NCBI GenBank assembly: GCA_025361935.1
Contig: JANYJB010000115.1
Coordinates: 1-44,038, forward strand
Reading direction: 5' to 3'
DNA length: 44,038 nucleotides
Source: Verrucomicrobiota bacterium
GTDB lineage: Bacteria; Verrucomicrobiota; Verrucomicrobiia; Opitutales; Opitutaceae
Shown: in pieces, positions 11,533 to 27,365 of the stretch
Layout: each line of letters starts with the position of its first letter
Position numbering within the stretch: position 1 is the stretch's first letter
Notes under the pieces: model-generated
Seen by the model: the letters and a program-made list of their open reading frames with translations, nothing else
What the model was told of the DNA's origin: nothing
Databases searched by the model: none
Program-made: the position numbers and the translations under genes

Positions 11533-12801
11533 ATGAGCCGCACCCCTCCGACTTTCACCCGCCGACTGCGATGGCGGCTGGAATATGGACTTTATCTGGC
11601 GGTCGAGAAGTTGATCGGACTGCTGACGCCCCGCGAGGCGTGTTTGGTCGGGGAACGGGTTGGCCTGCTCATGCGTCTGCTTTCTTCCAAGCATCGGCGC
11701 ATTGTAGAGCGCAACCTGCGGATCGCCTTCGCCGGCGAAAAATCACCGGCTGAGCTGGAGTCGCTGGCGGAAGAGGTTTTTCGCCGCGCCGGCGCCAATC
11801 TCATCGCCTCGCTTTGCACCGCCTCGCTCCCGCCGGAGGCATTGAACCGCGCGGTCGAGATAGAAAACGCCGAGCTGCTGACCAACGCGATGTCCACGGG
11901 CAAAGGTGTCATCGGCGTGCTTGCACACATGGGAAATTGGGAGGCGCTCGCCCAGAAATTCCCGCAGATCATGTCGCCGGGCGTGCAGGCCGGCGATATT
12001 TACCGCCGCCTGAGCAACCCCTATCTCGACGTCCGCATGGTGGCCACGCGCCAGCGCATGGGGCTGAAACTTTTTGAAAAAAACAGCAACCCTCTCGCGT
12101 TCGCCTCATTTTTGCGAGCGGGTTCTGTGCTGGGAATCGTCAGCGATCAGCGGGCCATAGGCATAGGCGAGATCGTGCCGTTTTTCGGGCGTTTGACCGC
12201 CTGCACACCGCTGCCGGCGGTGCTGGCCCGTCGCACGGGTGCGCAGGTATTCGGCGTTTCCGTTAAGACGCAGGCTCCGGGGCGCTGGCTTATCAAGTTT
12301 CATCCGCTGCTGGACGAGCCGACCACGGAAAATTGCATGAAGCTGCTCGAAACCGTCATGCGAGAAAGCCCGTCCGATGTGTTTTGGCTTCAGGACCGTT
12401 GGAAAGTGAGTTCGGACCAGCCCCAGTATGCTCCGGGAAGGGTTCCCAAGGGAGGCATCGCTATGCTGCGCGCCCACAAGAATCGCCGTTGTCTGGTTTG
12501 GCTGGCCGAGGACGCCGGCGAGGTGCCGCCGCTCAAGCAAGCCGAGCCGGACAACTTTGCCTACGAATACTCTCTTGCTGCCGGAACGCCGCGTCCCGCG
12601 TGGCTGGCGGCGGACGCCTGCGTGCACGTGCGCCCGGTCTTGAATCGGCGCAAGATAATCGCCGACGAAATCCACCGCATTGATCACGCGAGCGCACTGC
12701 CGCTTGATTTTGTTTATGCCCCTCATGGTCCCGACAAAGTGGTAGCGGTGTGCCGAGGCATGGGTATGCAGGTCGCCACGATTCCCGAGGGCAATCCGTG
12801 A
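11533..12801 (+). CDS. Lipid A acyltransferase (LpxL/HtrB family) with C-terminal extension
   Basis: A 422-residue protein whose first ~300 residues match late acyltransferases of lipid A biosynthesis, which add secondary acyl chains at the inner membrane. The catalytic HX4(D/E) motif is H132-E137 in LAHMGNWEAL; SDQRA, VPFFGR and FWLQDRWK follow. A hydrophobic N-terminal segment at ~18-35 would anchor it. Residues ~305-422 form an additional domain that family members normally lack (usual length ~300); it resembles no enzyme I can name with certainty. First gene of the plus-strand glycan operon; its stop overlaps the next start by 4 bp (GTGA). Confidence 0.88.
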   Translation: MSRTPPTFTRRLRWRLEYGLYLAVEKLIGLLTPREACLVGERVGLLMRLLSSKHRRIVERNLRIAFAGEKSPAELESLAEEVFRRAGANLIASLCTASLPPEALNRAVEIENAELLTNAMSTGKGVIGVLAHMGNWEALAQKFPQIMSPGVQAGDIYRRLSNPYLDVRMVATRQRMGLKLFEKNSNPLAFASFLRAGSVLGIVSDQRAIGIGEIVPFFGRLTACTPLPAVLARRTGAQVFGVSVKTQAPGRWLIKFHPLLDEPTTENCMKLLETVMRESPSDVFWLQDRWKVSSDQPQYAPGRVPKGGIAMLRAHKNRRCLVWLAEDAGEVPPLKQAEPDNFAYEYSLAAGTPRPAWLAADACVHVRPVLNRRKIIADEIHRIDHASALPLDFVYAPHGPDKVVAVCRGMGMQVATIPEGNP

Positions 12802-13724
12802 AAACAAAACTCACAGATATACGGATTTTATCCGACGGACGCCCCGGACACGAAAACCAGAGTTTTGGGCTGGCGGAGGCGTTGCGCCGGCGCACCGGCG
12901 CCGACGTGCAGTGTGTGCGGCTTGATTTGAAGCGGGGGTTTTTAGCACGGGTCGCACAGGCCCGCCAGATCGGCGTCGGTCAGCCCAAACCGCAACTCGT
13001 GATCTCGGCCGGTCACCGGACAAATTTGCCGTTGCTGCTGGCGGCGCGGTGGTTTCATGCGAAGTCGGTGGTGATCATGAAACCGTCGCTGCCGATGTGG
13101 CTTTTCGACCTCTGCATGGTTCCAAGGCACGACTTGCGCGGAGGAAAAGGAGTCGGACGCGTCGTGGCCACACGAGGCGCCCTCAATCGTCTGCCTGAGA
13201 TGATTTCACCGAAGACAGACACGGCCGTTATTTTGATTGGCGGGCCTTCCAAGCATCACGACTGGTCCGGGGCGCCGTTGATCGCGGCAATCAAAGAAAT
13301 CGTGAGTTCGCGGCCGGGGCTTGCCTGGACCGTGGCCAACTCGAGGCGCACGCCCGAAAGGTTTTTACGCGAGGTGGAGGCGCTGGGTCTTCCGGTCGAG
13401 ATCGTGCCGCACGAGAAGACCACGCCGAGCTGGCTGCCGGCGACGCTTATGGGGGCGCAGGAGGTGTGGGTGACCGATGACAGCACCTCGATGGTTTTCG
13501 AGGCGATCACCGCGCGCGCGCGGGTGGGGTTGCTGCCGCTGCCTCCGAAGCGACAGGATGATCGCATGGTGCGTGCCATCGAAGACGTGGTCGCGGCGGG
13601 GTATGCGACGCGTTATGCTGAGTGGTCGGTGACGCGAAGTCTGCCGGCCACGGCGGAGCCGTTGCACGAAGCCGGGCGTTGCGCGGATGAAATCTTGAGC
13701 TGTTTGTTTCCTGACGTCCCATGA
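12798..13724 (+). CDS. ELM1/DUF1022-type glycosyltransferase-like protein
   Basis: A 308-residue protein of the mitochondrial-fission ELM1 (DUF1022) family, a group with a GT-B glycosyltransferase-like fold found in many Gram-negative bacteria near lipid A genes. It shows ILSDGRPGHENQSFGLAEAL at the N-terminus, ISAGHRT, MKPSLP, LIGGPSKHHDW, and VTDDSTSMVFEA in the likely nucleotide-sugar half. The start is GTG 12798 within GTGA, overlapping the acyltransferase stop, so the two are translationally coupled; the same kind of overlap (ATGA) links it to the following GT4 gene. Its position between an acyltransferase and a glycosyltransferase supports a role in lipid A or core modification, but the reaction is not established. 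Confidence 0.85.
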   Translation: MKTKLTDIRILSDGRPGHENQSFGLAEALRRRTGADVQCVRLDLKRGFLARVAQARQIGVGQPKPQLVISAGHRTNLPLLLAARWFHAKSVVIMKPSLPMWLFDLCMVPRHDLRGGKGVGRVVATRGALNRLPEMISPKTDTAVILIGGPSKHHDWSGAPLIAAIKEIVSSRPGLAWTVANSRRTPERFLREVEALGLPVEIVPHEKTTPSWLPATLMGAQEVWVTDDSTSMVFEAITARARVGLLPLPPKRQDDRMVRAIEDVVAAGYATRYAEWSVTRSLPATAEPLHEAGRCADEILSCLFPDVP

Positions 13725-14830
13725 AAATCCTGCAGATACTTCCCGAGTTGAATGCCGGCGGCGTGGAGCGTGGCACGCTGGAGATAGCTAGCGCGCTGGT
13801 GGATGCAGGCCATGCATCGCTGGTGGTTTCCAACGGGGGGAGGCTCGTGACTGCTCTCGAAGCGGAGGGTTCGCGGCACATTGCCTTGCCAGTGCATCGC
13901 AAGAGTCTGTTTTCGCTGCTGCAAGCAAGAGAGCTCAGGATGGTCTTTGAGAAAGAAAAGCCCGATATCGTGCATGCGCGTTCGCGGGTGCCGGCGTGGA
14001 TCGCCTGGCTGGCGTTGCGCGGCATGGATGCGAAAGTGCGTCCTCATTTTGTCACGACGGTGCACGGGTTTTATTCGATCAACGGCTACTCTGCCATCAT
14101 GGCTCGGGGCGAGTGCGTCATCGCGGTGTCGCACTGCATCCGTGACTATATCACGGCGAATTACCCCAAGACGCCCGAGTCGGTGATCCGTGTGATTCCG
14201 CGTGGTGTCGAACTGGCGGAGTTGCCGCGAGGTTTCACGCCTCACGCCGCGTGGCTGAAAACTTGGAGGGAGGCTTTGCCGCAGTTGTCAGGCAAGGCGG
14301 TGTTGTTGTTGCCGGGGCGGATCACTCGGCTCAAGGGCCACGAGGATTTTTTTGGCATGGTGTCTGGTTTGAAGGCCGTCGGCATGGCGGTTCACGGTCT
14401 CGTGGTCGGTGATACGCATCCTAAAAAAAAGGCGTATATGGGTGAGTTGCATGAGGTGGTTGATCGTCTGGGGCTCAAGGGGGACGTGACGTTTCTCGGG
14501 CATCGGGCGGACATCCGCGAGATCATGGCGGTGTCGGATATCGTCTATTGCCTTTCGGTGCAGCCGGAGTCGTTTGGGCGGACGACGCTGGAAGCGTTCG
14601 CCATCGGAAAGCCCGTGGTCGGTTATGATCACGGGGGGGTGGCGGAGCAGTTACGCGAGCTTTTCCCCGAGGGCGCGGTGCCGTTGCGGGATGTGACCGG
14701 TCTCGTTAGGGCAACGGCTTCGATTCTGAAAACGAAGGCGGTTCCTGGCTTGGTGGGAGAACCGTTCACGAAAAACGCGATGTGTGCGGCGACGTTGAAG
14801 GTTTACCAAGAACTGATTCCAAAGAAATAA
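13721..14830 (+). CDS. GT4-family glycosyltransferase
   Basis: A 369-residue GT-B glycosyltransferase. The N-terminus QILPELNAGGVERGTLEIA carries the glycine-rich acceptor-side loop; VHGFYSINGY and VSHCIRDYI follow; the C-terminal half has LLPGRITRLKGHEDF, VTFLGHRADIREIMAVSDI and PESFGRTTLEAFAIGKPVVG with the E-x7-E motif that binds the sugar nucleotide. Retaining enzymes of this family add hexoses to LPS cores and O-antigens. The start overlaps the ELM1-type stop by 4 bp. Donor and acceptor are not readable from sequence. Relatives closest in context are LPS core transferases. Confidence 0.92.
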   Translation: MKILQILPELNAGGVERGTLEIASALVDAGHASLVVSNGGRLVTALEAEGSRHIALPVHRKSLFSLLQARELRMVFEKEKPDIVHARSRVPAWIAWLALRGMDAKVRPHFVTTVHGFYSINGYSAIMARGECVIAVSHCIRDYITANYPKTPESVIRVIPRGVELAELPRGFTPHAAWLKTWREALPQLSGKAVLLLPGRITRLKGHEDFFGMVSGLKAVGMAVHGLVVGDTHPKKKAYMGELHEVVDRLGLKGDVTFLGHRADIREIMAVSDIVYCLSVQPESFGRTTLEAFAIGKPVVGYDHGGVAEQLRELFPEGAVPLRDVTGLVRATASILKTKAVPGLVGEPFTKNAMCAATLKVYQELIPKK

Positions 14831-14879
14831 TTTCGCTTACATTTGGCGGCCAGATGGGTTGGAGTAATTACTTATTAGC

Positions 14880-16157
14880 ATGAAAAATATCGCCATTGTC
14901 GGCCTTGGTTATGTCGGGCTGCCACTTGCCTTGCAGTTCGTCCGTTCAGGCGGGCGCGTGCTTGGCCTCGACATTGACCAGCGCAAGGTGGACGCGATCA
15001 ACGCCGGGCGCAGTTACATCAAGCATGTTGGCGCCGAGGCGATCGCAGCGGCGCGGACGGGCGGCAAGCTGGAAGCCTCGGCGGATTTTTCCCGCGTGCG
15101 CGAGGTCGATGCGGTGATCTTGTGCGTGCCCACGCCGCTCAATACCTATCGCGAGCCTGACCTTAGTTACGTGCTCGATACGGGGCGGGCGATTGCTCCC
15201 CATCTTTCCAAGGGTGTCCTCGTGGTGCTCGAATCCACCACGTATCCCGGCACAACGGATGGCGAGTTGCGCGCGGTGTTGGAAGAAGGCTCCGGCCTGA
15301 AGGCTGGCGTCGATTTTCACCTAGCATTTTCCCCCGAACGCGAAGACCCGGGTAATCCCGACAGCAAGGTTGCGATCATTCCAAAGGTTGTCGGCGGGCT
15401 TACGCCCGCCTGTCTCGACAAGGCCATGGCGCTCTACGGAATTGCGATTCAAAAACTCGTGCCGGTGAGTTCGTGCCGCGTGGCCGAGGCGACGAAGCTT
15501 TTGGAGAACATTTTTCGCTCGGTGAACATCGCCTTGGTGAACGAGCTTAAGATCGTTTACGCGGCGATGGGCATCGACATCTGGGAGGTCATTGAAGCGG
15601 CAAAGACGAAGCCCTTCGGCTTCATGCCGTTTTATCCGGGGCCAGGACTCGGAGGACACTGCATTCCGATCGACCCCTTTTATCTCACGTGGAAGGCCCG
15701 CGAGTTCGGCCAGCACACGCGGTTTATCGAGCTGGCGGGTGAGATCAACACCGCCATGCCGGACTATGTGGTGAAGGTGGCATTCGAGGCGCTGAACGAC
15801 GACGGCAAGGCGGTTAAAAACGCCCGCGTGCTTATTCTCGGACTGGCCTACAAGGCCAACGTGGACGACGACCGCGAGTCGCCCAGCTACAAGCTTATCG
15901 AGAAGTTCGAGGCGTTGGGTGCGAAGGTCGAGTATCACGATCCGTTTGTGCCCGTGGTGCCGATGACGCGCGAACACGCGGTTTACGCCGGCCGCAAGTC
16001 GGTCGCAGCGATCACTCCGGACTACGACCTGATCGTGGTTTCGACCGGACACGCGGCCTATCGCGAGTTTGATTTCAGCGCCTACCCGATGCCGTTAATC
16101 GACACGCGTAACGCAGTGCCGGTGGCCTTGCGTCCGCAAAAATACGTAAAAGCTTGA
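14880..16157 (+). CDS. Nucleotide-sugar dehydrogenase (WbpA/UDP-HexNAc 6-dehydrogenase type)
   Basis: A 425-residue NAD-dependent enzyme of the UDP-glucose/GDP-mannose dehydrogenase superfamily that oxidises the C6 hydroxyl of a UDP-sugar to a uronic acid. The N-terminal fold is IVGLGYVGLPLALQF (7-14 glycine motif), the substrate domain has LESTTYPGTT, AFSPERED and FGFMPFYPGPGLGGH, with catalytic C261 in GGHCIPIDP. FSPEREDPG and GPGLGGHCIPIDP are typical of the WbpA/UDP-GlcNAc branch, not of UDP-glucose dehydrogenase. It supplies an acidic donor sugar for the adjacent transferases (inference). It starts at ATG 14880, 49 bp after the GT4 stop. Confidence 0.9.
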   Translation: MKNIAIVGLGYVGLPLALQFVRSGGRVLGLDIDQRKVDAINAGRSYIKHVGAEAIAAARTGGKLEASADFSRVREVDAVILCVPTPLNTYREPDLSYVLDTGRAIAPHLSKGVLVVLESTTYPGTTDGELRAVLEEGSGLKAGVDFHLAFSPEREDPGNPDSKVAIIPKVVGGLTPACLDKAMALYGIAIQKLVPVSSCRVAEATKLLENIFRSVNIALVNELKIVYAAMGIDIWEVIEAAKTKPFGFMPFYPGPGLGGHCIPIDPFYLTWKAREFGQHTRFIELAGEINTAMPDYVVKVAFEALNDDGKAVKNARVLILGLAYKANVDDDRESPSYKLIEKFEALGAKVEYHDPFVPVVPMTREHAVYAGRKSVAAITPDYDLIVVSTGHAAYREFDFSAYPMPLIDTRNAVPVALRPQKYVKA

Positions 16158-16215
16158 TCGTTTGTGACCCATTTCCTAATAAAGGCTTACGCAAATCGCC
16201 ACGCTCTCTAATATA

Positions 16216-17016
16216 ATGAGTTTATACGACACGATTCGATTTTTGGTTACCGGCGGTCGGGCTTGTGATGTCCATGAACTTTATGACGTTATCAGACCGC
16301 AAACGTGCGAAAATCTGCGCAAGTTGCGTCTAGGTAATCGCACCGGAGATGGCGGTTATGTGATGGTTGACGATTTCACGGATATTCGAGCTGCCCTGTC
16401 GCTGGGGATAGGAAGTGATATCTCGTGGGATGTGGAGATGACGCAACGAGGTGTGGAAATTTACCAATATGACCATACGGTCGATCCGCCTGCCGAATGT
16501 GCGGTCAATCCTAGGCTGCATTTTCACCGATGGGGCATCGCCGGAAAAGCCGATCCCGCGCTACGTCTCAAGACCATCGGTGACATTCTTTCGGACGAAA
16601 TGGCCGGGCATGCCGGGGATCTGATTTTGAAGATAGACATCGACGGTTACGAGTGGGACGCATTCGCCCAGATGCCTGATGAAGTGCTGCGCCGATTCAG
16701 GCAAATTTGCATCGAGATACACAATCCTTTGGGGAGACCAGCCCAGCGGGCACGGCGGCTAAGAAACTTAAGTGTTCTGCGAACCTTGCACCGATGGTTT
16801 GCGCCAGTTCACCTGCATGCGAATAATGCCGGTCCTGTCCGCGAGCTATGCGGCCTCAAGGTGCCAAAGCTTCTGGAAATCACCTATCTCCGCCGGGACG
16901 GGCAGGTGTTTACCGACTCCAAAGAAGCTTTTCCCGGTGAACTCGATGTGAAAAACATAACGATAAATCCGGAAATCGAAATCGGGACGATTGTGTCGAG
17001 AAAAGCGATTGCGTGA
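16216..17016 (+). CDS. FkbM-like methyltransferase (copy 2)
   Basis: A 266-residue protein with a class I methyltransferase core. ALSLGIGSDISWDVEM takes the place of the glycine-rich SAM loop, IYQYDHTV follows as the acidic strand, and the FkbM-type block ILKIDIDGYEWDAFAQMP is clear, with RFRQICIEIHNP after it. It diverges from the other FkbM proteins in this window, and its GC content appears lower than its neighbours, which may mark an acquired gene. ATG 16216; 58 bp after the dehydrogenase. Likely methylates a glycan residue made by this operon, but the acceptor is unknown. Confidence 0.78.
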   Translation: MSLYDTIRFLVTGGRACDVHELYDVIRPQTCENLRKLRLGNRTGDGGYVMVDDFTDIRAALSLGIGSDISWDVEMTQRGVEIYQYDHTVDPPAECAVNPRLHFHRWGIAGKADPALRLKTIGDILSDEMAGHAGDLILKIDIDGYEWDAFAQMPDEVLRRFRQICIEIHNPLGRPAQRARRLRNLSVLRTLHRWFAPVHLHANNAGPVRELCGLKVPKLLEITYLRRDGQVFTDSKEAFPGELDVKNITINPEIEIGTIVSRKAIA

Positions 17017-17064
17017 TTCTTGATAAAACTTGAACGCCGGAAGCGGAAAATTGAATCCAATGCC

Positions 17065-17955
17065 ATGAGCCTCACGCGGGCTTCAGCGATCATCGCCATC
17101 ATGAAGGGCGGACTGGGCAACCAGATGTTTATCTACGCTGCGGCCCGCGCCTTGGCGTTGCGCACTGGACGCCAGCTGTATCTTGACGTGAAACGCGGCT
17201 ACAAAGCGGACACCTACGGTCGCAGCTACCGGCTGGATCGATTTCTCATTACGGCCGAGTCCATGCCGGAGGACTGGCGGGTGGCGCCAACTTTGAAGCA
17301 TCCGCGTCATAAAGTGATCCGGGCGCTCAATAAATTGCTGCCGCGTAACCAGCGGGGGTATTTGGCGGAGCGGCATCACATGGATGCGCGTCAGTTGACC
17401 GTGTTGCAGCCGATGCGGGAGCGGGTGACGTTGCTAGGTTACTGGCAGGACGAGGCGTATTTTTACGACCAGGCCGACGGGATTCGCCGCGAACTCGCGC
17501 CGCCGGAGCCGGCGGATGCGCGCAACCGCGAACTCGGTCGGGAGATGGCGGCGGGCGAGGCGGTTTTCCTGCACGTGCGCCGAGTGCGTTACAACCTGAG
17601 GCTGGAGGCGGCTTATTATCAGGCGGCCATCGACGCGGTGCAGCGCGACGTCCGCAACCCGCGTTTTTATCTTTTTGGCGACGATCTGGAGTGGCCGCGC
17701 GCGACGTTGAATTTCGGTGATAGCGAGGTGCGTAGTGTTGATCACAATTCAGGAGACGAACTGGCGGATCTCTGGCTGATGACGCAGTGTCGGCACGCCA
17801 TCGTCGCGAATAGTTCGTTCAGTTGGTGGGGGGCGTGGCTGGGGCGGCCTGACGCGGGGCGCAAGGTATTCGGGCCGACGGAACCAGGTTGGCCGATCAA
17901 GCCCGCTTCAGGCTGGCGCCTGCTGTCCAATTCGCTTGAAAGGAGTGCTTCATGA
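17065..17955 (+). CDS. GT11-family (alpha-1,2-fucosyltransferase-like) glycosyltransferase
   Basis: A 296-residue protein of GT11, the family of alpha-1,2-fucosyltransferases that use GDP-fucose. It has the N-terminal GGLGNQMFIYAAARALA (residues ~15-31) and the C-terminal ANSSFSWWGAWLG (~248-260), both strong family marks. The third motif, normally HxRRxDY, reads HVRRVRYN at residues 170-177, so the signature Asp is absent. ATG at 17065 is preferred over an upstream in-frame TTG at 17020. It overlaps the following DUF268 gene by 4 bp. Sugar specificity and activity are inferences from family membership. Confidence 0.85.
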   Translation: MSLTRASAIIAIMKGGLGNQMFIYAAARALALRTGRQLYLDVKRGYKADTYGRSYRLDRFLITAESMPEDWRVAPTLKHPRHKVIRALNKLLPRNQRGYLAERHHMDARQLTVLQPMRERVTLLGYWQDEAYFYDQADGIRRELAPPEPADARNRELGREMAAGEAVFLHVRRVRYNLRLEAAYYQAAIDAVQRDVRNPRFYLFGDDLEWPRATLNFGDSEVRSVDHNSGDELADLWLMTQCRHAIVANSSFSWWGAWLGRPDAGRKVFGPTEPGWPIKPASGWRLLSNSLERSAS

Positions 17956-18713
17956 GTCCCCTGCGACCCCTTCGTAACGCTTTCAAACTGGCCGGCCGCT
18001 TACTGGTGCGCCCGCGGGATGTCAGCTGGTTCCTGAGCAGCTACCGTCAGTGGCAGCAATCGGCGTCGGCGGATTGGCGGGCCAACTTTGGCGATTTGAA
18101 GCCCTGTCTCGACGACCGCTACGATGCGGCGGGCTCGGCTAAGGGGCATTATTTTCTCCAGGACATCTGGGCGGCCCAGCGGGTTTTCAAGCATGCTGCG
18201 GCTGGGCATGTGGATGTGGGCAGCCGGGTGGACGGCTTTGTGGCGCACGTCGCCAGTTTTTGTCCGGTGAAGTATGTGGACATCCGCGCGATCGAGACGG
18301 CGGTGCCAAACCTCGTCGGCGTGCAGGGTAGCGTGTGCGCGCTGCCGTTTGTGGACCGTTCGCTGGAAAGCCTGAGCTGCCTGCATGTGATTGAGCACAT
18401 CGGTCTTGGTCGTTATGGCGATCCGATGGACCCGGACGGCTGGCTCAAGGGCCTCGGCGAATTGCAGCGCGTGCTCAAGCCGGGCGGGCAATTGTTGCTG
18501 GGAACGCCGTGCGGGCGTTCGCGCGTGGTGTTTCATGCGCACCGTGTGTTTTCGCCTAAGCAGATCATCGCGGCGATGCCCGAGCTGAAGCTGGAGGAGT
18601 TTTCGCTGATCAACGACGGTCTTTCGACCGCGTGGCGCGAGCAGGTGCCGCTGGAAAGCGCCGATACCCTGGAGTTTGGCTGCGGTCTGTTCCGCTTCAC
18701 CCGTCCGGCATGA
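17952..18713 (+). CDS. DUF268 family protein (methyltransferase-like fold)
   Basis: A 253-residue protein matching DUF268, a family found in polysaccharide clusters. It carries HVDVGSRVDGFVAHVASF, VKYVDIRAIE, SCLHVIEHIGLGRYGDPMDP, LKPGGQLLLGTP and FHAHRVFSP, a pattern that reads like a class I methyltransferase (glycine-rich loop, VDIRA acidic strand, LKPGG). No biochemical function is established for the family. An AGGAG ribosome site lies at 17941-17945, seven bases before ATG 17952. It overlaps GT11 upstream and GT10 downstream, each by 4 bp. Confidence 0.82.
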   Translation: MSPLRPLRNAFKLAGRLLVRPRDVSWFLSSYRQWQQSASADWRANFGDLKPCLDDRYDAAGSAKGHYFLQDIWAAQRVFKHAAAGHVDVGSRVDGFVAHVASFCPVKYVDIRAIETAVPNLVGVQGSVCALPFVDRSLESLSCLHVIEHIGLGRYGDPMDPDGWLKGLGELQRVLKPGGQLLLGTPCGRSRVVFHAHRVFSPKQIIAAMPELKLEEFSLINDGLSTAWREQVPLESADTLEFGCGLFRFTRPA

Positions 18714-19711
18714 GTCACGCGGTTTCCCCGAGCACCGATGCGACTCGCGAATTTCGGGTGCGCGTGACCATCGGCTTTGAGGTGGGCGGCCTGGAGTGGT
18801 TCACGCCGGGGCGGAGCATGAAGGTGGGGCGTTGCCGGTTCGAGGTGCATCCGCCGGAGGACACGCCCTGCGATTATTGGATCGTGTTCGGGAACGCGAA
18901 GCCGCGTGAAACCGCGTTGGTGGCGCCGGCCAACACGCTGTTCATCGCCGGGGAACCGCCGGCCAAGAAATGTTATCCGATGGCGTTTTACCGTCAGTTT
19001 GCGCACGTGGTGGACACGCATGCGGGTTCGCGGCATCCGGGGCTGGTGATCGATGCGCTGGGGCTGTTCTGGATGGTGGGGCTGAGTTGGAAAAAATACG
19101 GCTACGTGTTCGGCTACGATCACCTGAAGCAGCTGGCGGCGCCCGAAAAAATCAACCGCGTGTCGGTGGTCTGCTCGAACACCGCGAGCACGGTCGGGCA
19201 GCGGCGGCGTCTGGAATTTCTGCATGCGTTGAAGGCGCGGCTTGGCGACAAGCTCGTGCATTTTGGGAAAGGATTCACGCCGGTGGACGACAAGATGGAG
19301 GCGGTGGAACCTTACCGGTTTCATCTGGTGCTGGAGAACAGCCAGAGTCCGCATTACTGGACGGAGAAGCTCACCGACGCCTATCTCGGGTGGGCGTTTC
19401 CGCTTTATGTGGGGTGCAAGAATCTGGGGGATTACTTTTCAACCGAGTCATTCCGGGCGCTCGACATGGACGACGTGGACGGCGCGGTTGCGTTGATCGA
19501 GCGGATGCTCGCCGCGCCACGCAGTCCGGCGGAGGTCGAGGCGGTGCGGGTGGCACGCGAGCAGGTGCTGGACGTTTACAACCCCTTCGTGCGTTTTGCG
19601 CAGTGGGTGGAGCGCTTTCACCGCGAAGAACCGGCGGAACGGGTGACGATCCGTGCGGAGAAGGCGTTTCGTCCGCTTAGCGGCTGGCTTTATCGTCTGA
19701 AAAAGCGCTGA
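18710..19711 (+). CDS. GT10-family (alpha-1,3/4-fucosyltransferase-like) glycosyltransferase, copy 1
   Basis: A 333-residue GT-B enzyme of GT10. The C-terminal donor-binding region reads FHLVLENSQSPHYWTEKLTD, then AYLGWAFPLYVGCKNLGDYF, the classic GT10 motif (ENS...YxTEK...A...P.Y.G). The N-terminal half is divergent, with VVCSNTAS marking the linker. Known members transfer fucose from GDP-fucose to GlcNAc, as in Helicobacter Lewis antigens. ATG 18710 lies within ATGA, overlapping the DUF268 stop. It is the last gene of the plus-strand operon, converging on copy 3 of FkbM with a 25-bp gap. The sugar is inferred from family. Confidence 0.87.
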   Translation: MSHAVSPSTDATREFRVRVTIGFEVGGLEWFTPGRSMKVGRCRFEVHPPEDTPCDYWIVFGNAKPRETALVAPANTLFIAGEPPAKKCYPMAFYRQFAHVVDTHAGSRHPGLVIDALGLFWMVGLSWKKYGYVFGYDHLKQLAAPEKINRVSVVCSNTASTVGQRRRLEFLHALKARLGDKLVHFGKGFTPVDDKMEAVEPYRFHLVLENSQSPHYWTEKLTDAYLGWAFPLYVGCKNLGDYFSTESFRALDMDDVDGAVALIERMLAAPRSPAEVEAVRVAREQVLDVYNPFVRFAQWVERFHREEPAERVTIRAEKAFRPLSGWLYRLKKR

Positions 19712-19736
19712 GCGCGCTGGGATCGGACGCGGCCGC

Positions 19737-20537
19737 TCAGGCTTTGCTGCGGAAGGCGACGTAATTGACCGTGGTGAATTGTTCCTCGGTCTCTCGGTAA
19801 CGCCGGAGGGGATGGAAATAGCCGCTGGGGGTGATGCGGTAGAGGTCCATGCCCTGCGCCTTGAAGAAATTGTAGAAGTCGCGGAGGTAGCTGCGGGTGT
19901 CGATGTTGCAGCCGCCGAACTCGAAGGTGACCATGTCCACGCCTTGGCGGGCGAAGATCCCGGTGGCACCGCGCAGCACGTCGAGCTCGTGGCCCTCGAC
20001 GTCCATCTTGAGCCAGTTGATGCGGGTGATGCCGTGTTCGGTGCAATAGGCGTCGACGGTCGAGAGGGTGATGGATTCCTCGCGTTCGAAACTGATGTTG
20101 CGGAACGAGAGGTCGCGTTTGGTGAGCGAGGCGAGGCCGGAGTTCTCCTTGTCGTAGAAGAGGCGCGCGGTGCCGGGCTCGGCGGAAAGGCCGAAGTGGT
20201 TGAGGCGGACGTTGGCCTGCTTGGGAGCGTTTTTCGTGAGCGTTTGATAGGTCACCGCAGCGGGCTCGAAGGAGTGGATTTCGCGCAGGTGGTCGCCGAG
20301 GCGCGAGGCGGTGAAGTTGAGGAACTGGCCCTTGTTGGCACCCACGTCGAAGACGACGAGGTCGCGCCGGTTGTCGCGGATGAGTTTGCGGATGACGGAC
20401 GCCTCGCCGCTGTCCTCAACATCGGTGCCGGAGCCGATGCCCATGAGCCAGTGGCAGAGCTTCACCTGTTTGCGCAGGAGGTATTGGCCGGGACGGTTGC
20501 CGAAGGGGTATTTGAGAAGGTGGCGGAAAAAGGCCAT
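19737..20537 (-). CDS. FkbM-family methyltransferase (copy 3)
   Basis: A 266-residue class I methyltransferase. The SAM loop is VVFDVGANKGQFLNFTASRL near residue 61 with IHSFEPAAVTYQTL, and the FkbM hallmark is NWLKMDVEGHELDVLRGA, followed by VTFEFGGCNIDTRSYLRDF. It is the closest of the copies here to the canonical family. ATG 20537 follows the GT10 stop by 11 bp, making it the last gene of the minus-strand glycan operon. It probably methylates a sugar hydroxyl on the product; the acceptor is unknown. Confidence 0.9.
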   Translation of the reverse strand: MAFFRHLLKYPFGNRPGQYLLRKQVKLCHWLMGIGSGTDVEDSGEASVIRKLIRDNRRDLVVFDVGANKGQFLNFTASRLGDHLREIHSFEPAAVTYQTLTKNAPKQANVRLNHFGLSAEPGTARLFYDKENSGLASLTKRDLSFRNISFEREESITLSTVDAYCTEHGITRINWLKMDVEGHELDVLRGATGIFARQGVDMVTFEFGGCNIDTRSYLRDFYNFFKAQGMDLYRITPSGYFHPLRRYRETEEQFTTVNYVAFRSKA

Positions 20538-20548
20538 GGGAAAACTGT

Positions 20549-21598
20549 TTATGGGCGATGGGTTGCCAGACGGGCCAGCGTAATCCGCGCGCGCTCTGCG
20601 GCGAAGGCGAGGGTGTTACCGACGCTGGCGTGTCGCCAAGCGTGGCGGCTCTGAATGGTCTCGGGTGACGTTGAGTGGGGCGCAGGCAGGGCGGCCCTGT
20701 CTTCGATGAGGCGGGCGAGGCGGGGAAAGGTGCCGTGTTCTTCGAGGACACGGCGGCGGGCCTCGCGGATGAGGGAGAGCCGGCGTTCGTATTGGCCGGA
20801 GGAAACGGCGTCCTTGATGATGCGCACAGCACCGTCAAAATCGTGGATGTTGATCGGGATGACGCTGCCGGGGGGGAAGTAGTCGTCCACGTTGGGGCAG
20901 CCGTGATAAAACGGCAGGCAGAGTCCGAGAAACGAGTCGGAGAGTTTTTCGGTCCAGTGATGGGGTGCCACGTGGTTTTCGATGGCCACGTGATAACGGA
21001 AGGAATCGAGAGCCTCGTTTTTTTGTTTAATGGGGCGCACGCCGTGTCCGAAAATCTCCAGTTTGGGCATCACGGCCTTGAGTCGCTGGGTGAAGACGTA
21101 GCGTGCGCGGTGCAACGTGTGCCGCTGCTGCTTCGAGGAGCACACGGTGGAGATGAGGGCAGTTTTGTTGGAAGGCTCGCGGGCGGCGATGACATCGTGG
21201 TCGCCTTCGTAGAAGCGCACCAGGCCGGGTTGTTCGCGAATGGCTCCGGGGTGGTCAATGATACATGGCTCCTGGCTCGTAAGCACCCAGCCGAATTGGG
21301 CGAGAAAACCGCGGCCGTAGATTTTGATGCTGGAGGGTTCGCTGGTCAGCAGCACGGTGCGGGCACGGGGGCATGCGAGGACTTCCTCCGATTGGCTGAA
21401 GCGTTCGCCGCCGATGGAGGGAAGGTCGTCGTAAACCAGCAGCCAGTCGTAGTCACGGACGTTGCGGTCAAAAATAAAGCGACAACGACCGACGAGGGGA
21501 TTGCCTCCGGGCAGGTAGCATCTCCAGACCGAAGTGACGTCGGCCTCACTATTTTTAGTCAGGAATTTGACCCGGATTTCAGGGGATGAGGAGGGCAT
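20549..21598 (-). CDS. GT10-family glycosyltransferase, copy 2
   Basis: A 349-residue GT10 protein. The donor-site region reads FRYHVAIENHVAPHHWTEKL, then SDSFLGLCLPFYHGCPNVDDYF, the same motif order as copy 1 (IEN...WTEKL...P.Y.G). N-terminal features include LLVYDDLPSI, LLTSEPSSIKIYG and ALISTVCSSKQQRH. ATG 21598 is preferred; ATG 21652 is also in frame but would overlap the end of the GT25-like gene. Sequence identity to copy 1 is limited mainly to the C-terminal motif, so this is not a recent duplication. Fucose as donor is the family expectation, untested here. Confidence 0.86.
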   Translation of the reverse strand: MPSSSPEIRVKFLTKNSEADVTSVWRCYLPGGNPLVGRCRFIFDRNVRDYDWLLVYDDLPSIGGERFSQSEEVLACPRARTVLLTSEPSSIKIYGRGFLAQFGWVLTSQEPCIIDHPGAIREQPGLVRFYEGDHDVIAAREPSNKTALISTVCSSKQQRHTLHRARYVFTQRLKAVMPKLEIFGHGVRPIKQKNEALDSFRYHVAIENHVAPHHWTEKLSDSFLGLCLPFYHGCPNVDDYFPPGSVIPINIHDFDGAVRIIKDAVSSGQYERRLSLIREARRRVLEEHGTFPRLARLIEDRAALPAPHSTSPETIQSRHAWRHASVGNTLAFAAERARITLARLATHRP

Positions 21599-21608
21599 GT
21601 CGCAGGGA

Positions 21609-22472
21609 TTAAAAACCGCGCAGACGTTTGGCGCAGCTTCTGAACCAGTCATAAACCCCGCTCAGTCGAGAGCACAACGTGCGCAGTCCGCGAAGGAGAC
21701 CGAAGGCTACGGGACCAGGGGAACAGGAGGGGATGGTGACTTGGTGGCGGCCTGATTCCTGATAGTCGGTTTTCCGGCCGACGATATCGGAGAAGCCCGA
21801 GTCCTGCCGAACAAGGCAGGGAGACAGCGCAACAACGCGAAAGCGCCGGCCGAGGGTGCGCAAATACCAGCGGTCGACCGCCCGGTTGCGCGAGAGCCAG
21901 GACCAGATGGTGTCGGTGCGGGGAAGTCGTGAGAGGAGATCGGCGCGAACGCGTGGGTTGACCACGTAAGCGTGGGCGCAGTTGCAGCCGAAAACCTCGT
22001 GCAGGCTGTAACCGGCGGGAAGATCGGCCAGTTGGCGAGTGGGTCCGGCCGGGTCGGTGTAGCCGAGGTAGCAGATGTCCCATTCGCCGGAGTGGTCGCG
22101 CAGCCATTCGCCGAGCTTGGGCAGCACGGAGGCAGTTTCCGGAGTGAAAAAAATATCGTCCTCGAGGATCAGGATCGGCCGGTCGGATTGGCTGGCACCG
22201 AGTTCGAGCGCCCGCCGGTGGGCAAGGGTGCAACCGCCGCGGGCTGCCCAGGTTTTGTCGCGGGAGCGGCCGTGAAACCAAGGGCGCTGGCCGTAGCCGG
22301 GCAGTTCGCGGCCGAGCACGGCGGGGGAGCGCGTGATTTTATCCGCAGGGATGAGGCTGCTGACATCGTGCTGGATTTTCTCCCAGCGATCGGCGCGTTG
22401 GTCGAGGTTGATGACGTAAACCCCGGCGACCAGATCCCAAAACGGATGAGGACATGATGCCTGCGTGCTCAT
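21609..22472 (-). CDS. GT25-family (LPS biosynthesis) glycosyltransferase-like protein
   Basis: A 287-residue protein. It begins GVYVINLDQRADRWEKIQ, the start typical of GT25 enzymes, then GCTLAHRRALELG and RPILILEDDIFFTPETASVL, in which LEDD is the metal/donor-binding acidic motif. WDICYLGYT and NCAHAYVVNP follow. GT25 includes LPS beta-galactosyltransferases such as Lex2B/LgtB. ATG 22472 overlaps the upstream GT8-like stop by 4 bp; the frame remains open further upstream but the domain begins here. Donor probably UDP-galactose or similar by family; not proven. Confidence 0.85.
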   Translation of the reverse strand: MSTQASCPHPFWDLVAGVYVINLDQRADRWEKIQHDVSSLIPADKITRSPAVLGRELPGYGQRPWFHGRSRDKTWAARGGCTLAHRRALELGASQSDRPILILEDDIFFTPETASVLPKLGEWLRDHSGEWDICYLGYTDPAGPTRQLADLPAGYSLHEVFGCNCAHAYVVNPRVRADLLSRLPRTDTIWSWLSRNRAVDRWYLRTLGRRFRVVALSPCLVRQDSGFSDIVGRKTDYQESGRHQVTIPSCSPGPVAFGLLRGLRTLCSRLSGVYDWFRSCAKRLRGF

Positions 22473-23242
22473 TCCTTCCAGTGGTCGGCGATCCACGGCG
22501 CGGACTTCATGTGATGATGAATCTTGGCGCCGCGGAAGCCGCGGATGGCCTCGTCGGGATCGGGCCGGCCGTGAAACACGAGGATGCGGCAGCCTTTCGG
22601 AGGCTTCGGCGTGGCGAGCAGGTTGAAGGGGAAGCGGGGGCGGCAGTGGCGTTTGTAGCTGCGCGCCCATTCGTCGGGCCACCAGTGGACTTCCTTCATC
22701 GCATAGGTGAGGAAGGCCTGCTCGGTGTTGAAGACGGTGCGATCCTCGGCGCGGTGGATTTCGCGAAGGAATGTTTCGTAGATGTAATTCGAGGCACCCG
22801 CTTCGAAGCGGAAGATCGAGGAGTTGCCGACGTGGGGGCGCTGGCCGAGGAGTTCTTTGCGAGCCTTCACCCAGTTGTGGATGATGCAGTTTTTGCCGGG
22901 GTGATAATCGAAGAAGCAGCCGATGTCGTCCATGATGGCGACGTCGAGATCGAGGAAGAGCGTGGGGCCGGTCAGGCCGCCGAAGCCGTCCTGAGTGACC
23001 ATGAGTTTTACCAGAACATCGGGCCAGCCGCGCTTGAGTCCCGGGTCGGCGGGGAAGGGGATGATGCGAACTTCGGGGTCGAGGCCGGTCGCGTTTTCGG
23101 TGCAGCAGTGAAAGAGAAACGGGCGGCGCAAGTGGCGTTTCACCCCGGCGAGCAGAGTGTTTACATAGTGCGGTCCGTAGCGGGTGCCCCACTTGATGCA
23201 GAGTATGTTGACTGGCGAAGAAAAAGGCGAAGGGACTGGCAT
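22469..23242 (-). CDS. GT-A fold (GT8-like) glycosyltransferase
   Basis: A 257-residue protein. The N-terminal INILCIKWGTRYGPHYVNTL-like opening (residues ~12-30), a mid-protein TLFLDLDVAIMDDIGCFFDY carrying a DxD metal site, and HNWVKARKELL plus GNSSIFRF are typical of small GT-A glycosyltransferases related to GT8. ILVFHGRPDPDEAI near the end resembles the conserved HF.G..KPW region of such enzymes. A GAGG ribosome-like site lies about ten bases before ATG 23242. It is the third gene of the minus-strand operon and overlaps the GT25-like gene by 4 bp. The donor is unknown. Confidence 0.75.
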   Translation of the reverse strand: MPVPSPFSSPVNILCIKWGTRYGPHYVNTLLAGVKRHLRRPFLFHCCTENATGLDPEVRIIPFPADPGLKRGWPDVLVKLMVTQDGFGGLTGPTLFLDLDVAIMDDIGCFFDYHPGKNCIIHNWVKARKELLGQRPHVGNSSIFRFEAGASNYIYETFLREIHRAEDRTVFNTEQAFLTYAMKEVHWWPDEWARSYKRHCRPRFPFNLLATPKPPKGCRILVFHGRPDPDEAIRGFRGAKIHHHMKSAPWIADHWKE

Positions 23243-23251
23243 TTAAAAACC

Positions 23252-24115
23252 TCAGAGTGGACTTGGCTTGGCTGTAGACGCAAGCGGCAGAATGCCTGCT
23301 TCAATGAGCGCGGCGAGAGCCGCCGGCATCATATGCTGTGAGAGGTGATGACCGTCTATAAAACAGGCGGATGTCGGTCCGTCGACTGGTGCGGTCACGC
23401 CGGTTGAGCGAATGCCTGCAAGATTGCAGGCATCGGAGAGTCGCGCGCAATAGGCGCGGGTGATTTCATCCCGCAGGGCCTGCGGGCCGATGACGGGCAA
23501 CGCCTGGATGTCTTCAGGGTTTTCGGTGCCTTCCAAAACGGGTGTCAGCGAGGGCAACCAGACGGACGGGGTGTGGCCGGCCGCCTTCAGGCGTAGCGGG
23601 AGCCGCATGAAACGATCCACCGTTTCGTTGACGGCAGTTTCGACACTGCGTCCCGCGAGGACCGCCTTGGGGATGTGGCAGCGGCAGTCTATCTCGCCAA
23701 AAACAAGAAGGATGCGTGAGGTGGCGGGAATGTCGCGCGAGCGGAGCAGGGCGTCGATTTTTTCGCGGGCGCAGGTGGACGAGCCGCGTTCGTCGGCCTG
23801 CCATGCGGTGGCGGGTCCAACATGGAACACCTTGAAAACGGGCAGCAGCTCTGCGGTCGAGCTGACGTAGCGCGCACGAAAAAATCCCGTCCAGATGCGA
23901 CGGCCTTTGCGAAAGCGGATATTTTCGGTCCCGCCGAAAAAAATCGAATGGCTGTCTCCCACCACGTGGAGAACCGGCAGCGGCCTGCGCGGGACGAACC
24001 CGATGTGGCGCGCGAGCAAGGCGTGCCTGCGGGCATCCAGTCCCGGTGGATGCGGCAGGCTCGCGCCAAGCGCGCTTTCAAGAGAGTTGATCTCGGCCAG
24101 GGTGGCGGCGTCCAT
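23252..24115 (-). CDS. SGNH/GDSL-hydrolase-like protein
   Basis: A 287-residue protein with blocks in SGNH-hydrolase order: LHVVGDSHSIFF (Ser block, residues ~48-59), LLVFGEIDCRCHI (a G-E-x-D variant of the usual GxND block), and CFIDGHHLSQHM (Asp/His block near the C-terminus). There is no signal peptide. In glycan operons such proteins may add or remove acetyl or other ester groups on sugars; that is inference. ATG 24115; 32 bp after the MsbA-like stop and 9 bp before the GT8-like start. The atypical second block leaves catalysis uncertain. Confidence 0.7.
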   Translation of the reverse strand: MDAATLAEINSLESALGASLPHPPGLDARRHALLARHIGFVPRRPLPVLHVVGDSHSIFFGGTENIRFRKGRRIWTGFFRARYVSSTAELLPVFKVFHVGPATAWQADERGSSTCAREKIDALLRSRDIPATSRILLVFGEIDCRCHIPKAVLAGRSVETAVNETVDRFMRLPLRLKAAGHTPSVWLPSLTPVLEGTENPEDIQALPVIGPQALRDEITRAYCARLSDACNLAGIRSTGVTAPVDGPTSACFIDGHHLSQHMMPAALAALIEAGILPLASTAKPSPL

Positions 24116-24147
24116 GCAGCGGAAAGGCGGCGGTTGATGTGCCCGGC

Positions 24148-25893
24148 TTAGCCGGAGGCAACGTTTTGCTGGTCGTAGAGTGCGCGGTAGAGCGGGTTTT
24201 CCGCATGGAGCCGGGCATGGTCTCCTTTGGCGATGATCCGGCCCTCTTGGAAAACCAGGATCATGGTGGCGTCGCGGATGGTGCTGAACCGGTGGGCGAT
24301 GATCAGCACGGTCTTGCCGACGACGAGTTTCTTGAGCGCCTGCTGGATGGCCGCCTCGCTCTCGCTGTCGAGCGCGCTGGTGGCCTCGTCGAGGATGAGG
24401 AGCGGGGCGTTGCGCAGGAAGGCGCGGGCGACGGCGAGGCGCTGGCGTTGGCCGCCTGAGAGGGTGGCGCCGCGTTCGCCAACGATGGTGTCGTAGCCTT
24501 GCGGCAGGCTGGCGATGAAGTCGTGGACGAAGGCGTCCCGGGCGGACTGTTCGACCTCGGCGTGGCTGGCGTCGTGGCGTCCAAGCAGGAGGTTGTTGCG
24601 GATCGTGTCGTTGAAGAGCACGGGCTCCTGAGAGACGATGGCGATGTTGCGGCGAAGATCGGCCAGAGTCATGTCGCGCAGATCGACGCCGTCGAGGGTG
24701 ATGCGTCCCGCGCTGACATCATAAAAGCGAGGCACGAGGTTGGCGAAGGTGGATTTGCCGGCTCCGCTTGGTCCGACGAGCGCGCAGGTGGTGCCGGCGG
24801 GGATGGTCACGGTCACGTCGCGGAGCGCGGCGGTGTCGTTGTCATAGGTAATGCCGACGTGCTCGAAGACGAGATCGCCGCGAACGCGGGTGACGGCCAC
24901 GGGATTTTTGGGATCTTGGATGGTCACCGGTTCATTCAAAACGACCTCCAGGCGATCCAGCGCGGCGGTTCCTATTTTGGTGATGTTTTGCAGAGCCCCG
25001 AGTTTTTTGATCGGGTCGTAGCAGCTGTAGAGCGCCATGATGATGGCGACGAAAGAGTTTAGGGAAATGTGGACGTGATAGGCGTAAATCAACGTGATTG
25101 AGATGCCGATGGATGAGATGATCTCTATCAAGGGAGGCAGGGCCTGGGTGTATTTCGTCACCTTCATTTGATAGGTGAGCAGCTTGCGGGTGATCAGTCC
25201 GAGGCGTTCGGTCTCTCGCTTTTCCAGTCCGAATGCGCGCACCTCGCGGGCGGCGTTCAGGTTCTCGCTGAAACGTTCGCTGACCTGCCCGAGATGGCCT
25301 TGAACCTGGGCGGCGCGATTGATGAGGCGTTTGCCAACGTAGCGAATCGGCAGAATGGACAGGGGGATGACCGCCATGCTGACCAAAACCAAAATGACTC
25401 CGTGCTCGTTGTAGGCTTTCCAAGCGAGGAAACTCAAGGCGCCGATCAACGAGGTGGGTTGTTTAAAGATGTCGTTGGCAAACGAGGTCAACGCCACCTG
25501 CAGCGTCTGGGTGTCGGTCATGCCGCGCGAAATGAGGTCGCCGGTTTTGTGCTTTTGCAGGAAGGCGAGCGGCAGGACTTGCAGTTTGCGAAAATAATCC
25601 AGGCGGAGCGCTTCGAGCACGCGCGTGCCCGCGTATTGGATGAGGTAACTGTTGAAATAACCCGCGATGCCGCGCGCCAGAAAAATCCCCGGCAGCCAGA
25701 GGGCGATCATAAACAACTGCCAGTCAGTCAGGCGGGCGGCGCTTTCGTTGAATATCTTGGGGAAGACCTTTTGAATCATGAACGGCAGGCCGGCGCCGTT
25801 GGCTATGCCGTAAACAACTCCACACAGCAGGGCCACGACGATCGGCCAGCGGACGATCTTGAGGTAGGCGAGATACGGACGTAAGCGTTGCAT
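24148..25893 (-). CDS. MsbA-like ABC exporter (lipid/lipid-linked glycan)
   Basis: A 581-residue half-transporter with six membrane helices in residues ~1-310 and a C-terminal nucleotide-binding domain. It has Walker A VGPSGAGKST, Q-loop IVSQEPVLF, signature LSGGQRQRLAVARAF, Walker B LLILDEATSALD and switch His in IIAHRFST. Length and layout match MsbA, which flips lipid A-core across the inner membrane as a homodimer. It heads the minus-strand operon of glycan genes, which supports a lipid A/lipooligosaccharide substrate. ATG 25893 is chosen over an in-frame TTG seven codons upstream. Other lipid or peptide exporters share this architecture, so the substrate is inferred. Confidence 0.9.
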   Translation of the reverse strand: MQRLRPYLAYLKIVRWPIVVALLCGVVYGIANGAGLPFMIQKVFPKIFNESAARLTDWQLFMIALWLPGIFLARGIAGYFNSYLIQYAGTRVLEALRLDYFRKLQVLPLAFLQKHKTGDLISRGMTDTQTLQVALTSFANDIFKQPTSLIGALSFLAWKAYNEHGVILVLVSMAVIPLSILPIRYVGKRLINRAAQVQGHLGQVSERFSENLNAAREVRAFGLEKRETERLGLITRKLLTYQMKVTKYTQALPPLIEIISSIGISITLIYAYHVHISLNSFVAIIMALYSCYDPIKKLGALQNITKIGTAALDRLEVVLNEPVTIQDPKNPVAVTRVRGDLVFEHVGITYDNDTAALRDVTVTIPAGTTCALVGPSGAGKSTFANLVPRFYDVSAGRITLDGVDLRDMTLADLRRNIAIVSQEPVLFNDTIRNNLLLGRHDASHAEVEQSARDAFVHDFIASLPQGYDTIVGERGATLSGGQRQRLAVARAFLRNAPLLILDEATSALDSESEAAIQQALKKLVVGKTVLIIAHRFSTIRDATMILVFQEGRIIAKGDHARLHAENPLYRALYDQQNVASG

Positions 25894-27296: not shown

Positions 27297-27307
27297 ACTG
27301 GACTTTC

Positions 27308-27333: not shown

Positions 27334-27365
27334 ATTACCAAGCCGATTCTCCCCCGTGTTCATTC

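Follow-up and report, generated by a model that had tools for sequence, protein, structure and literature searches.

A putative fucosylated and methylated lipid A glycan island with two GT10 and one GT11 enzymes in a bacterium of the Opitutaceae

The window, i.e. the whole stretch of 44,038 nucleotides that was analysed, from a Verrucomicrobiota bacterium of the family Opitutaceae, carries a glycan island bounded by oppDF on the left and serS-tilS-ftsH on the right. All 14 open reading frames originally predicted were found in place, eight on the plus strand and six on the minus strand, converging within 11533-25914. The gap at the point of convergence, between 19711 and 19737, is 25 bp long, and a scan for promoters and terminators found none there. 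Both tandem repeats of the window (550-619 and 32609-32646) lie off the island, and an Rfam scan of the window returned a single tRNA and nothing else. The genes and flanks are as follows, with Pfam matches at or above the curated cut-off unless marked otherwise.

9391-11399, minus: oppF-oppD, left flank (best NCBIfam matches, oligopeptide/dipeptide transporter ATPases)
11533-12801, plus: LpxL/LpxM-type lipid A acyltransferase (PF03279, 132 bits, residues 18-291 of 422)
12798-13724, plus: ELM1-family protein, putative glycosyltransferase (PF06258, 200 bits)
13721-14830, plus: GT4 glycosyltransferase (PF13439/PF00534, 95.6 bits)
14880-16157, plus: nucleotide-sugar 6-dehydrogenase (predicted hexuronate donor synthesis), 425 aa (Pfam, 152.5 bits)
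16216-17016, plus: FkbM-like/Methyltransf_22 methyltransferase, weak (Methyltransf_22, 22.4 bits, equal to the cut-off of 22.4)
17020-17955, plus: GT11 fucosyltransferase, divergent subfamily (PF01531, 69.5 bits)
17952-18713, plus: DUF268/class-I methyltransferase (PF03269, 53 bits; Methyltransf_11, 26.1 bits, cut-off 21.2)
18710-19711, plus: GT10a fucosyltransferase, ATG at 18710 (PF00852, 33.4 bits, cut-off 23.9)
19737-20537, minus: FkbM methyltransferase (PF05050, 66.9 bits; TIGR01444, 85.9 bits)
20549-21652, minus: GT10b fucosyltransferase (PF00852, 24.6 bits, cut-off 23.9)
21609-22472, minus: GT25-like glycosyltransferase (PF01755, 24.9 bits, cut-off 24; scanned as 21612-22466)
22469-23242, minus: GT8-like enzyme of GT-A type (marked: no Pfam family; DxD present; structure model)
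23252-24115, minus: SGNH-hydrolase-like protein (marked: no Pfam family; motifs)
24148-25914, minus: MsbA-like ABC exporter, TTG start (PF00664 and PF00005, 115 and 113 bits)
26028-30502, plus: serS-tilS-ftsH, right flank (NCBIfam over cut-off)

The families originally assigned to these genes were mostly confirmed; missing from that list was the nucleotide-sugar dehydrogenase at 14880-16157, which matches TIGR03026 with 425 bits at a cut-off of 189.8. The LpxL-type protein has approximately 120 additional C-terminal residues, and its best NCBIfam matches are lauroyl acyltransferases, every one of them below cut-off; its gene shares 4 bp with that of the ELM1 protein. The best NCBIfam match of the exporter is MsbA (TIGR02203), at 467 bits also below the cut-off of 602. 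For the GT25-like gene, the putative start is the ATG that gives a 4-bp overlap with the stop of the GT8-like gene. As for the two FkbM methyltransferases expected, that at 19737-20537 holds, whereas the protein at 16216-17016 scores 20.5 bits against FkbM, under the cut-off of 22.7. Since the DUF268 protein also matches Methyltransf_11, three methyltransferases are predicted in all, and they make the glycan a putatively methylated one.

The reading of the GT10 and GT11 proteins as fucosyltransferases has gained from catalytic residues, fold and genomic linkage. None of the three genes contains a stop codon, and both GT10 proteins pass the GT10 profile cut-off of 23.9. Residues E85, R170, Y219, E222 and K223 of GT10a (window:18701-19708) align with the catalytic Glu95 and with Arg195, Tyr246, Glu249 and Lys250 of the donor site in HpFucT, the Helicobacter enzyme, to which the protein as a whole matches with only 32 bits; GT10b retains four of the five, with a histidine at the position of Tyr246. 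HpFucT mutants in Glu95 and Glu249 are described as having almost no activity (PMC4202792). In the GT11 protein, the HVRR of the HxRRxD motif given for GT11 in the same source is present, the Asp is missing in the window copy and its closest relatives, and one Arg is invariant across nine aligned sequences. The GT11 model (pLDDT 85) has exclusively NodZ or plant FUT1 fucosyltransferases at ranks 1-15 of the Foldseek search against the PDB, with heptosyltransferases starting at rank 16 and FUT8 and POFUT1 ranking lower, all at TM-scores of about 0.4-0.5; the modelled fold resembles GDP-fucose transferases best.

The GT8-like and SGNH-like assignments have no Pfam match behind them and are upheld by other evidence. 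The AlphaFold model of the GT8-like enzyme (pLDDT 90.7) finds LARGE1, glycogenin, UGGT and alpha-3-GalT as its best PDB matches (TM about 0.5-0.6), and D98 and D100 are invariant in 29 sequences. In the SGNH-like protein, the GDSH, GEIDCR and D..HLS blocks are invariant in six sequences. A sequence search of the PDB with the ELM1 and GT8-like proteins gave no match.

As stated earlier, the genes for GDP-fucose synthesis are absent from the window: neither the gmd family nor the fcl query matched its contig. Elsewhere in the genome (G000, an 88% complete assembly) fcl is intact (G000:C111:21976-22911), without stops and 83% identical to the fcl of the congener G041, so GDP-fucose genes are not altogether absent. 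The same assembly yielded no gmd over cut-off and no match to the fucose pyrophosphorylase domain of fkp. In 10 of 12 congeners gmd is immediately upstream of fcl, a place taken here by a Bat-like operon. A fragment at a contig end (G000:C80:13161-13346), considered as a truncated gmd, proved to be in the frame of another SDR, presumably one resembling UDP-xylose synthase, and a masked gmd was ruled out by the complete lack of N in the C111 stretch and in the window. Lacking a gmd over cut-off, fkp and a gmd beside fcl, the strain can be credited with fucose only putatively. GDP-fucose synthesis may even have been lost, with gmd deleted, fcl a remnant, and the GT10 and GT11 enzymes idle or using another donor; the missing gmd and the Bat-like gene upstream of fcl are in line with this, as is a second genome with fcl and no gmd (G120, 77% complete). 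Such a loss is nevertheless judged rather unlikely, given the incompleteness of the assembly, the intact fcl and the uninterrupted GT10 and GT11 genes, and given that G124, the closest genome compared, likewise has no gmd beside fcl but carries one on another contig.

Among genomes of the family, 12 of 14 with GT10 and 97 of 106 without it carry a gmd over cut-off, so that GT10 does not make gmd more frequent; this co-occurrence is uninformative as a test of the donor because 109 of the 120 genomes have gmd over cut-off anyway. More was learned from GT10b across bacteria, a search of genome contigs giving 513 relatives, with Verrucomicrobiota, Pseudomonadota and Planctomycetota among the phyla that carry them. 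The titles of their records mostly indicate lakes, sediments and bioreactors. Eighty GT10b loci were fetched and 78 measured, two having no usable ORF. At an identity of at least 45%, gmd and/or fcl occur in 15 of the 78, and in 13 of these 15 one of the two lies no further than 500 bp from GT10b; the other 63 loci, many of which end at contig borders, have neither gene at 45% identity. The dehydrogenase, taken as control gene, was found in four loci and in none within 500 bp of GT10b. At genome level, 40 GT10b genomes were chosen, of which 32 have a gmd over cut-off and eight do not, vs 6 with gmd among 14 unmatched control genomes. In one of the eight, Thiohalobacter, the best gmd match carries in-frame stops. 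A gene of the GT10b type without any gmd over cut-off also occurs in G044, which is 99% complete. The linkage of the GT10b subfamily to gmd and fcl supports GDP-L-fucose as the putative donor.

The flanks of the island recur in three other genomes of the genus (G041, G124 and G126), in two of which the island is broken over contigs; on the left at least oppD adjoins LpxL in all three. The search for the same gene order in relatives was thus borne out for the flanks and for LpxL-ELM1-GT4, a constant block in which LpxL keeps its position at 61-80% identity and ELM1 is syntenic, but not for the interior. The dehydrogenase is 95% identical in G124 and 88% in G041; ORFs named by eye as MBOAT-like and sulfotransferase-like appear in G041 and GT9-like ones in G126, and the MsbA-like exporter had no match in the island stretches searched in G041 and G124. 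A genome search found no ELM1 match in nine genomes of the genus. Among other Verrucomicrobiota, loci L089, L143 and L163 have LpxL-ELM1-GT4 near oppD; the serS-side flank is also present in L089, L143 and L160, with serS-MsbA on the opposite side of the block in L089 and L143. In the GT10a tree, which leaves out L087 (same contig as that of G124) and the over-long ORFs L098 and L111, monophyly of the genus copies, tested with four genus rows as one clade including G126 as a long branch, is rejected with a p-AU of 0.0136, an optimistic value as the clade was chosen after identities had already shown the conflict. The copy of G124 groups with Planctomycetota (support 95/91). That the genus copies do not form one clade suggests replacement by transfer; transfer of GT10a within the genus is supported by the tree, and the island interior has probably been swapped between lineages while the flanks persist.

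The constant LpxL-ELM1-GT4 block also suggests that the glycan would be carried on lipid A. Alternatively, a fucosylated glycan could reside elsewhere, on a separate glycolipid, a capsule or a glycoprotein, with the LpxL-like and MsbA-like proteins serving another lipid. Both fall under the respective NCBIfam cut-offs tried, and LpxL was matched in just 11 of the 80 GT10b loci, though many loci are short; against this stand the constancy of the block, both across the genus and at several further loci of Verrucomicrobiota, and the Pfam scan of the 14 island proteins, in which no Wzx, Wzy, WaaL-type, capsule or polymerase family was detected. A glycan off lipid A is therefore considered unlikely. 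The lack of Wzx, Wzy and WaaL families among these proteins also favours stepwise, LOS-type addition over a polymerised O-antigen.

With moderate confidence, the locus is best explained as an island for a fucosylated and methylated LOS-type lipid A glycan or core decoration. In the proposed scheme, LpxL, ELM1 and GT4 would acylate lipid A and begin a branch on its core, which the GT8-like and GT25-like enzymes would lengthen; the two GT10 enzymes and the GT11 enzyme would add L-fucose from GDP-fucose, and the three predicted methyltransferases may cap sugars. The SGNH protein could edit acyl groups, the dehydrogenase would provide a hexuronate donor, and the MsbA-like exporter would flip the completed molecule. 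The acceptor sugars, the order of addition, the attachment to lipid A and activity in the strain are putative throughout. Of the methylated, possibly fucosylated, lipid-A-borne glycan originally envisaged, the fucosyltransferase reading is strengthened, methylation and carriage on lipid A are predicted, and fucose in the strain is unproven.

In bacteria, GT10 and GT11 enzymes are known chiefly as the makers of Lewis antigens in Helicobacter, and GT25 includes the Helicobacter beta-1,4-GalT. The comparison already drawn with this system is valid at the level of enzyme families and does not extend to a demonstrated structure. As in H. pylori, where two GT10 enzymes (futA/futB) and one GT11 enzyme (futC) act on LPS sugars, two GT10 genes accompany one GT11 gene, and the counterparts of Glu95, Arg195, Glu249 and Lys250 are kept in both GT10 proteins, that of Tyr246 in GT10a. 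Unlike in Helicobacter, the genes lie in one island, the GT10 sequences are distant (33.4 and 24.6 Pfam bits), and a GT8-like enzyme, a dehydrogenase and methyltransferases are added. True Lewis-type antigens, made by a GT25 beta-1,4-GalT, two GT10 and one GT11 enzymes, would agree with the GT10 (futA/futB) and GT11 (FutC) inventory described for Helicobacter (PMC4202792), but are very improbable here: the GT25 match is marginal, GT10a is remote from HpFucT, and the modelled GT8-like enzyme suggests a different backbone.

LPS core and O-antigen islands generally combine fixed flanks with a variable interior. The present island shares constant flanks and variable decoration genes with them; it differs in having no Wzx/Wzy set and in being anchored at LpxL-ELM1-GT4 beside oppD and serS. 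Closer counterparts come from the GT10b loci, where neighbours include ELM1 (31 of 80), GT4 at any identity (37 of 80), GT25 (30 of 80) and the GT8-like gene (34 of 80). The sub-cassette GT8-like-GT25-GT10b facing GT10a also occurs in Thiobacillus and Thauera, homologous and equal in order and convergence; the Thiobacillus and Thauera loci also include ELM1-GT4. In Thauera sp. 28 (L127), ELM1-GT4-GT8x-GT25-GT10b converges on GT11-GT10a, and gmd-fcl adjoins GT10a. The window adds to these LpxL, the dehydrogenase, FkbM, DUF268, the SGNH protein and the exporter, and differs from the Thioalkalivibrio neighbourhood, gmd-fcl-GT10b, in having no gmd-fcl in the island. A literature search, covering its sources in part, returned no published description of the GT8x-GT25-GT10b/GT10a cassette. 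In the tree of the GT8-like protein (26 rows, without the nine locus matches that diverged most), the split between Verrucomicrobiota and Pseudomonadota needs only two changes, for which one or few exchanges are enough; repeated transfer across phyla is unsupported by it.

In this 'double GT10' cassette the GT8-like, GT25 and GT10b genes face GT10a; ELM1-GT4 belongs to it as well, and in some cases so do GT11 and gmd-fcl. Tentatively, and with more doubt than confidence, it may be mobile across phyla and, in Verrucomicrobiota, Pseudomonadota and Planctomycetota alike, build a single conserved fucosylated motif of the LPS core. It places the ELM1 family and the GT8-like family, the latter lacking a Pfam match, in a defined context and is a source of candidate fucosylation enzymes. 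If the proposal is true, fucosylation of LPS by GT10 and GT11 enzymes would be environmentally widespread and not chiefly a matter of mimicking animal blood groups; as the cassette recurs in bacteria mostly from lakes, sediments and bioreactors, another role, for example evasion of phages or predators, would be worth considering.

The assembly (2.48 Mb, 115 contigs, 88.4% complete), of which the window is one entire contig, contains an island of 14 genes bounded by oppF-oppD and by serS-tilS-ftsH:

8570-9382, minus: extra FkbM-type methyltransferase adjoining oppF, outside the originally predicted interval (TIGR01444, 91.6 bits)
9391-11399, minus: oppF-oppD
11533-12801, plus: LpxL-type protein, followed on the same strand by ELM1, GT4, a nucleotide-sugar dehydrogenase, an FkbM-like protein, GT11 and DUF268
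18710-19711, plus: GT10a, last gene of the plus set
20549-21652, minus: GT10b, in a set made up of FkbM, GT10b, GT25, GT8-like, SGNH-like and MsbA-like genes
22469-23242, minus: GT8-like gene of that set
26028-30502, plus: serS-tilS-ftsH
31948-33306, plus, past ftsH: second UDP-glucose/GDP-mannose dehydrogenase family gene, separate from that of the island

The island genes are tightly packed, several adjacent pairs sharing 4-bp overlaps, and the two sets converge across a 25-bp gap, which fits the two operons of the original prediction. Its gene list was correct overall; it lacked the dehydrogenase, counted one FkbM protein that is sub-threshold, and gave the DUF268 match of a protein that also has a methyltransferase-family match. 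The C-terminal ~120 residues of the LpxL-type protein extend past the Pfam domain, and this extension aligns fully in two genomes of the same genus (G124 and G126) and mostly in a third (G041).

A profile of 22 GT10 proteins aligned to Helicobacter FucT (HpFucT, 2NZW) with an E-value of 2e-35. Arg195 and Lys250 of HpFucT, which like Tyr246 are donor-site residues, correspond to R170 and K223, the Tyr246 position being occupied by Y219 in GT10a and by a histidine in GT10b. Glu95 pairs with the invariant E85 and Glu249 with E222; mutants of these two glutamates in HpFucT are virtually inactive (PMC4202792). The 15 best PDB matches of the predicted GT11 model (pLDDT 85) were all NodZ or plant FUT1 (TM-scores about 0.4-0.5), with FUT8 and POFUT1 among the lower matches and heptosyltransferases appearing from rank 16; this GT11 subfamily is without the Asp of the HxRRxD motif. 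Pfam gave no match for the GT8-like and SGNH-like proteins. In the GT8-like protein the DxD motif (D98, D100) is invariant in an alignment with 28 relatives, and its predicted model (pLDDT 90.7) resembles LARGE1, glycogenin, UGGT and alpha-1,3-galactosyltransferase, all retaining GT-A enzymes, with TM-scores of about 0.5-0.6. The SGNH-like protein has the GDSH, GEIDCR and D..HLS blocks in all six aligned sequences.

Within the genus, ELM1 was detected in 4 of 13 genomes, the one under study included, and GT10 in 5 of 13. G041 retains both flanks and the gene order, with LpxL-ELM1-GT4-dehydrogenase-GT11-DUF268-GT10a opposite GT10b-GT25-GT8-like-SGNH and further genes separating DUF268 from GT11, while in G124 and G126 the locus lies in two contigs each, the pieces carrying the same flanks as the window. 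By inspection of sequence, the interior holds MBOAT acyltransferase-like and sulfotransferase-like ORFs in G041, a sulfotransferase-like ORF in G124 and GT9-like ORFs in G126. A second SGNH-type gene lies between serS and tilS in G124 and G126; such a gene (L054:8454-9095, L057:5843-6487 and L084:5246 in the fetched loci) is distant from the SGNH-like gene of the island (27-29% identity). The identities of ftsH (95% to G124, 78% to G041) and GT10a (54% and 79%, respectively) conflict with descent, and in the GT10a tree the genus copies do not form one clade (p-AU 0.0136), the G124 copy clustering with Planctomycetota (support 95/91). Parts of the island interior have therefore probably been swapped.

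Scanning named genomes with 14 island-type GT10 sequences yielded 513 relatives. The best 80 loci, which include at least four contigs from already-examined genomes (L087, L089, L090, L099), belong by title to Verrucomicrobiota, Pseudomonadota (including Thiobacillus, Thauera and Thioalkalivibrio), Planctomycetota, Desulfuromonadales and a few others. Counting any match at E 1e-6 with overlaps resolved, GT4 was present in at least 37 of these 80, GT8-like in 34, ELM1 in 31, GT25 in 30, GT10a in 26, MsbA-like in 18, LpxL in 11 and GT11 in 8, all lower bounds because contig ends cut many loci. One locus (L084) matched 11 of the 14 island genes in the order and relative orientation of the window, with LpxL, the dehydrogenase and the FkbM-like gene unmatched and a further SGNH-like gene separating the exporter from the rest. 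Another, titled Opitutaceae bacterium (L163), has the opp-LpxL-ELM1-GT4 neighbourhood in common with the window. In Thauera sp. 28, ELM1-GT4-GT8-like-GT25-GT10b faces GT11-GT10a, and gmd-fcl, the genes of de novo GDP-fucose synthesis, adjoin GT10a.

The GT10b ORF could be measured in 78 loci. Of these, 15 contained gmd and/or fcl (at least 45% identity), the nearest lying within 500 bp of GT10b in 13, of which six are Thioalkalivibrio and amount to about one event; the remaining 63 had neither at this identity within the stretch examined. The dehydrogenase, taken as a control, occurred in four loci and never within 500 bp. At genome level, 32 of the 40 selected GT10b genomes had a gmd above the cut-off, versus 6 of 14 controls unmatched by phylum. 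Evidence against GDP-fucose as the donor is that the other eight GT10b genomes have no gmd over the cut-off, that G044, 99% complete, has a GT10b-type gene and likewise none, and that within the family gmd over the cut-off was about equally common with GT10 (12/14) and without it (97/106); the 63 loci with neither gene and the missing Asp of the GT11 subfamily also count against it. Thiohalobacter (G130, locus L144), which carries a GT10b gene and is one of those eight, has a best gmd match with three in-frame stops (contig 1 near 1388712-1389389), paralleling the missing gmd here.

The original prediction proposed looking for GDP-fucose genes in the genome. An intact fcl was found at C111:21976-22911, without stops and with 83% identity to that of G041, adjoining an apparent pgl-opcA-zwf (names by inspection) as in G041 and G126; searches of the 88.4% complete assembly returned neither a gmd over the profile cut-off nor the salvage gene fkp. 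The cut-off was passed in 10 of 13 genus genomes and 109 of 120 family genomes, and in an eleventh genus genome (G127) gmd is divided between two contigs. Ten of the 12 further members of the genus carry gmd immediately upstream of fcl, counting G127, whose gmd runs off its contig; this arrangement is missing from G124, where gmd is on a different contig from fcl, and from G120 (77% complete), which has none over the cut-off. Here a Bat/vWA-type operon (name by inspection) occupies the usual gmd place, with the solo fcl directly behind it (7983-8918 of the fetched locus L072). It is fair to state that the second enzyme of the route is present and the first was not found, having been either lost or relocated to a region that the assembly does not cover.

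Helicobacter is a known case of GT10 and GT11 enzymes fucosylating LPS. A literature search, mostly of journals open without subscription, turned up neither a description of this cassette nor work on fucosylated LPS in Opitutaceae in the texts available. Pfam matches placed none of the 14 island proteins in the Wzx, Wzy or WaaL families, and the constant LpxL-ELM1-GT4 block suggests that the glycan is attached to lipid A. In the likeliest mechanism, a short branched oligosaccharide would be assembled sequentially in the cytoplasm on lipid A-core, where it would receive methyl groups and, at up to three positions, fucose; the completed molecule would then be flipped by the MsbA-type exporter.
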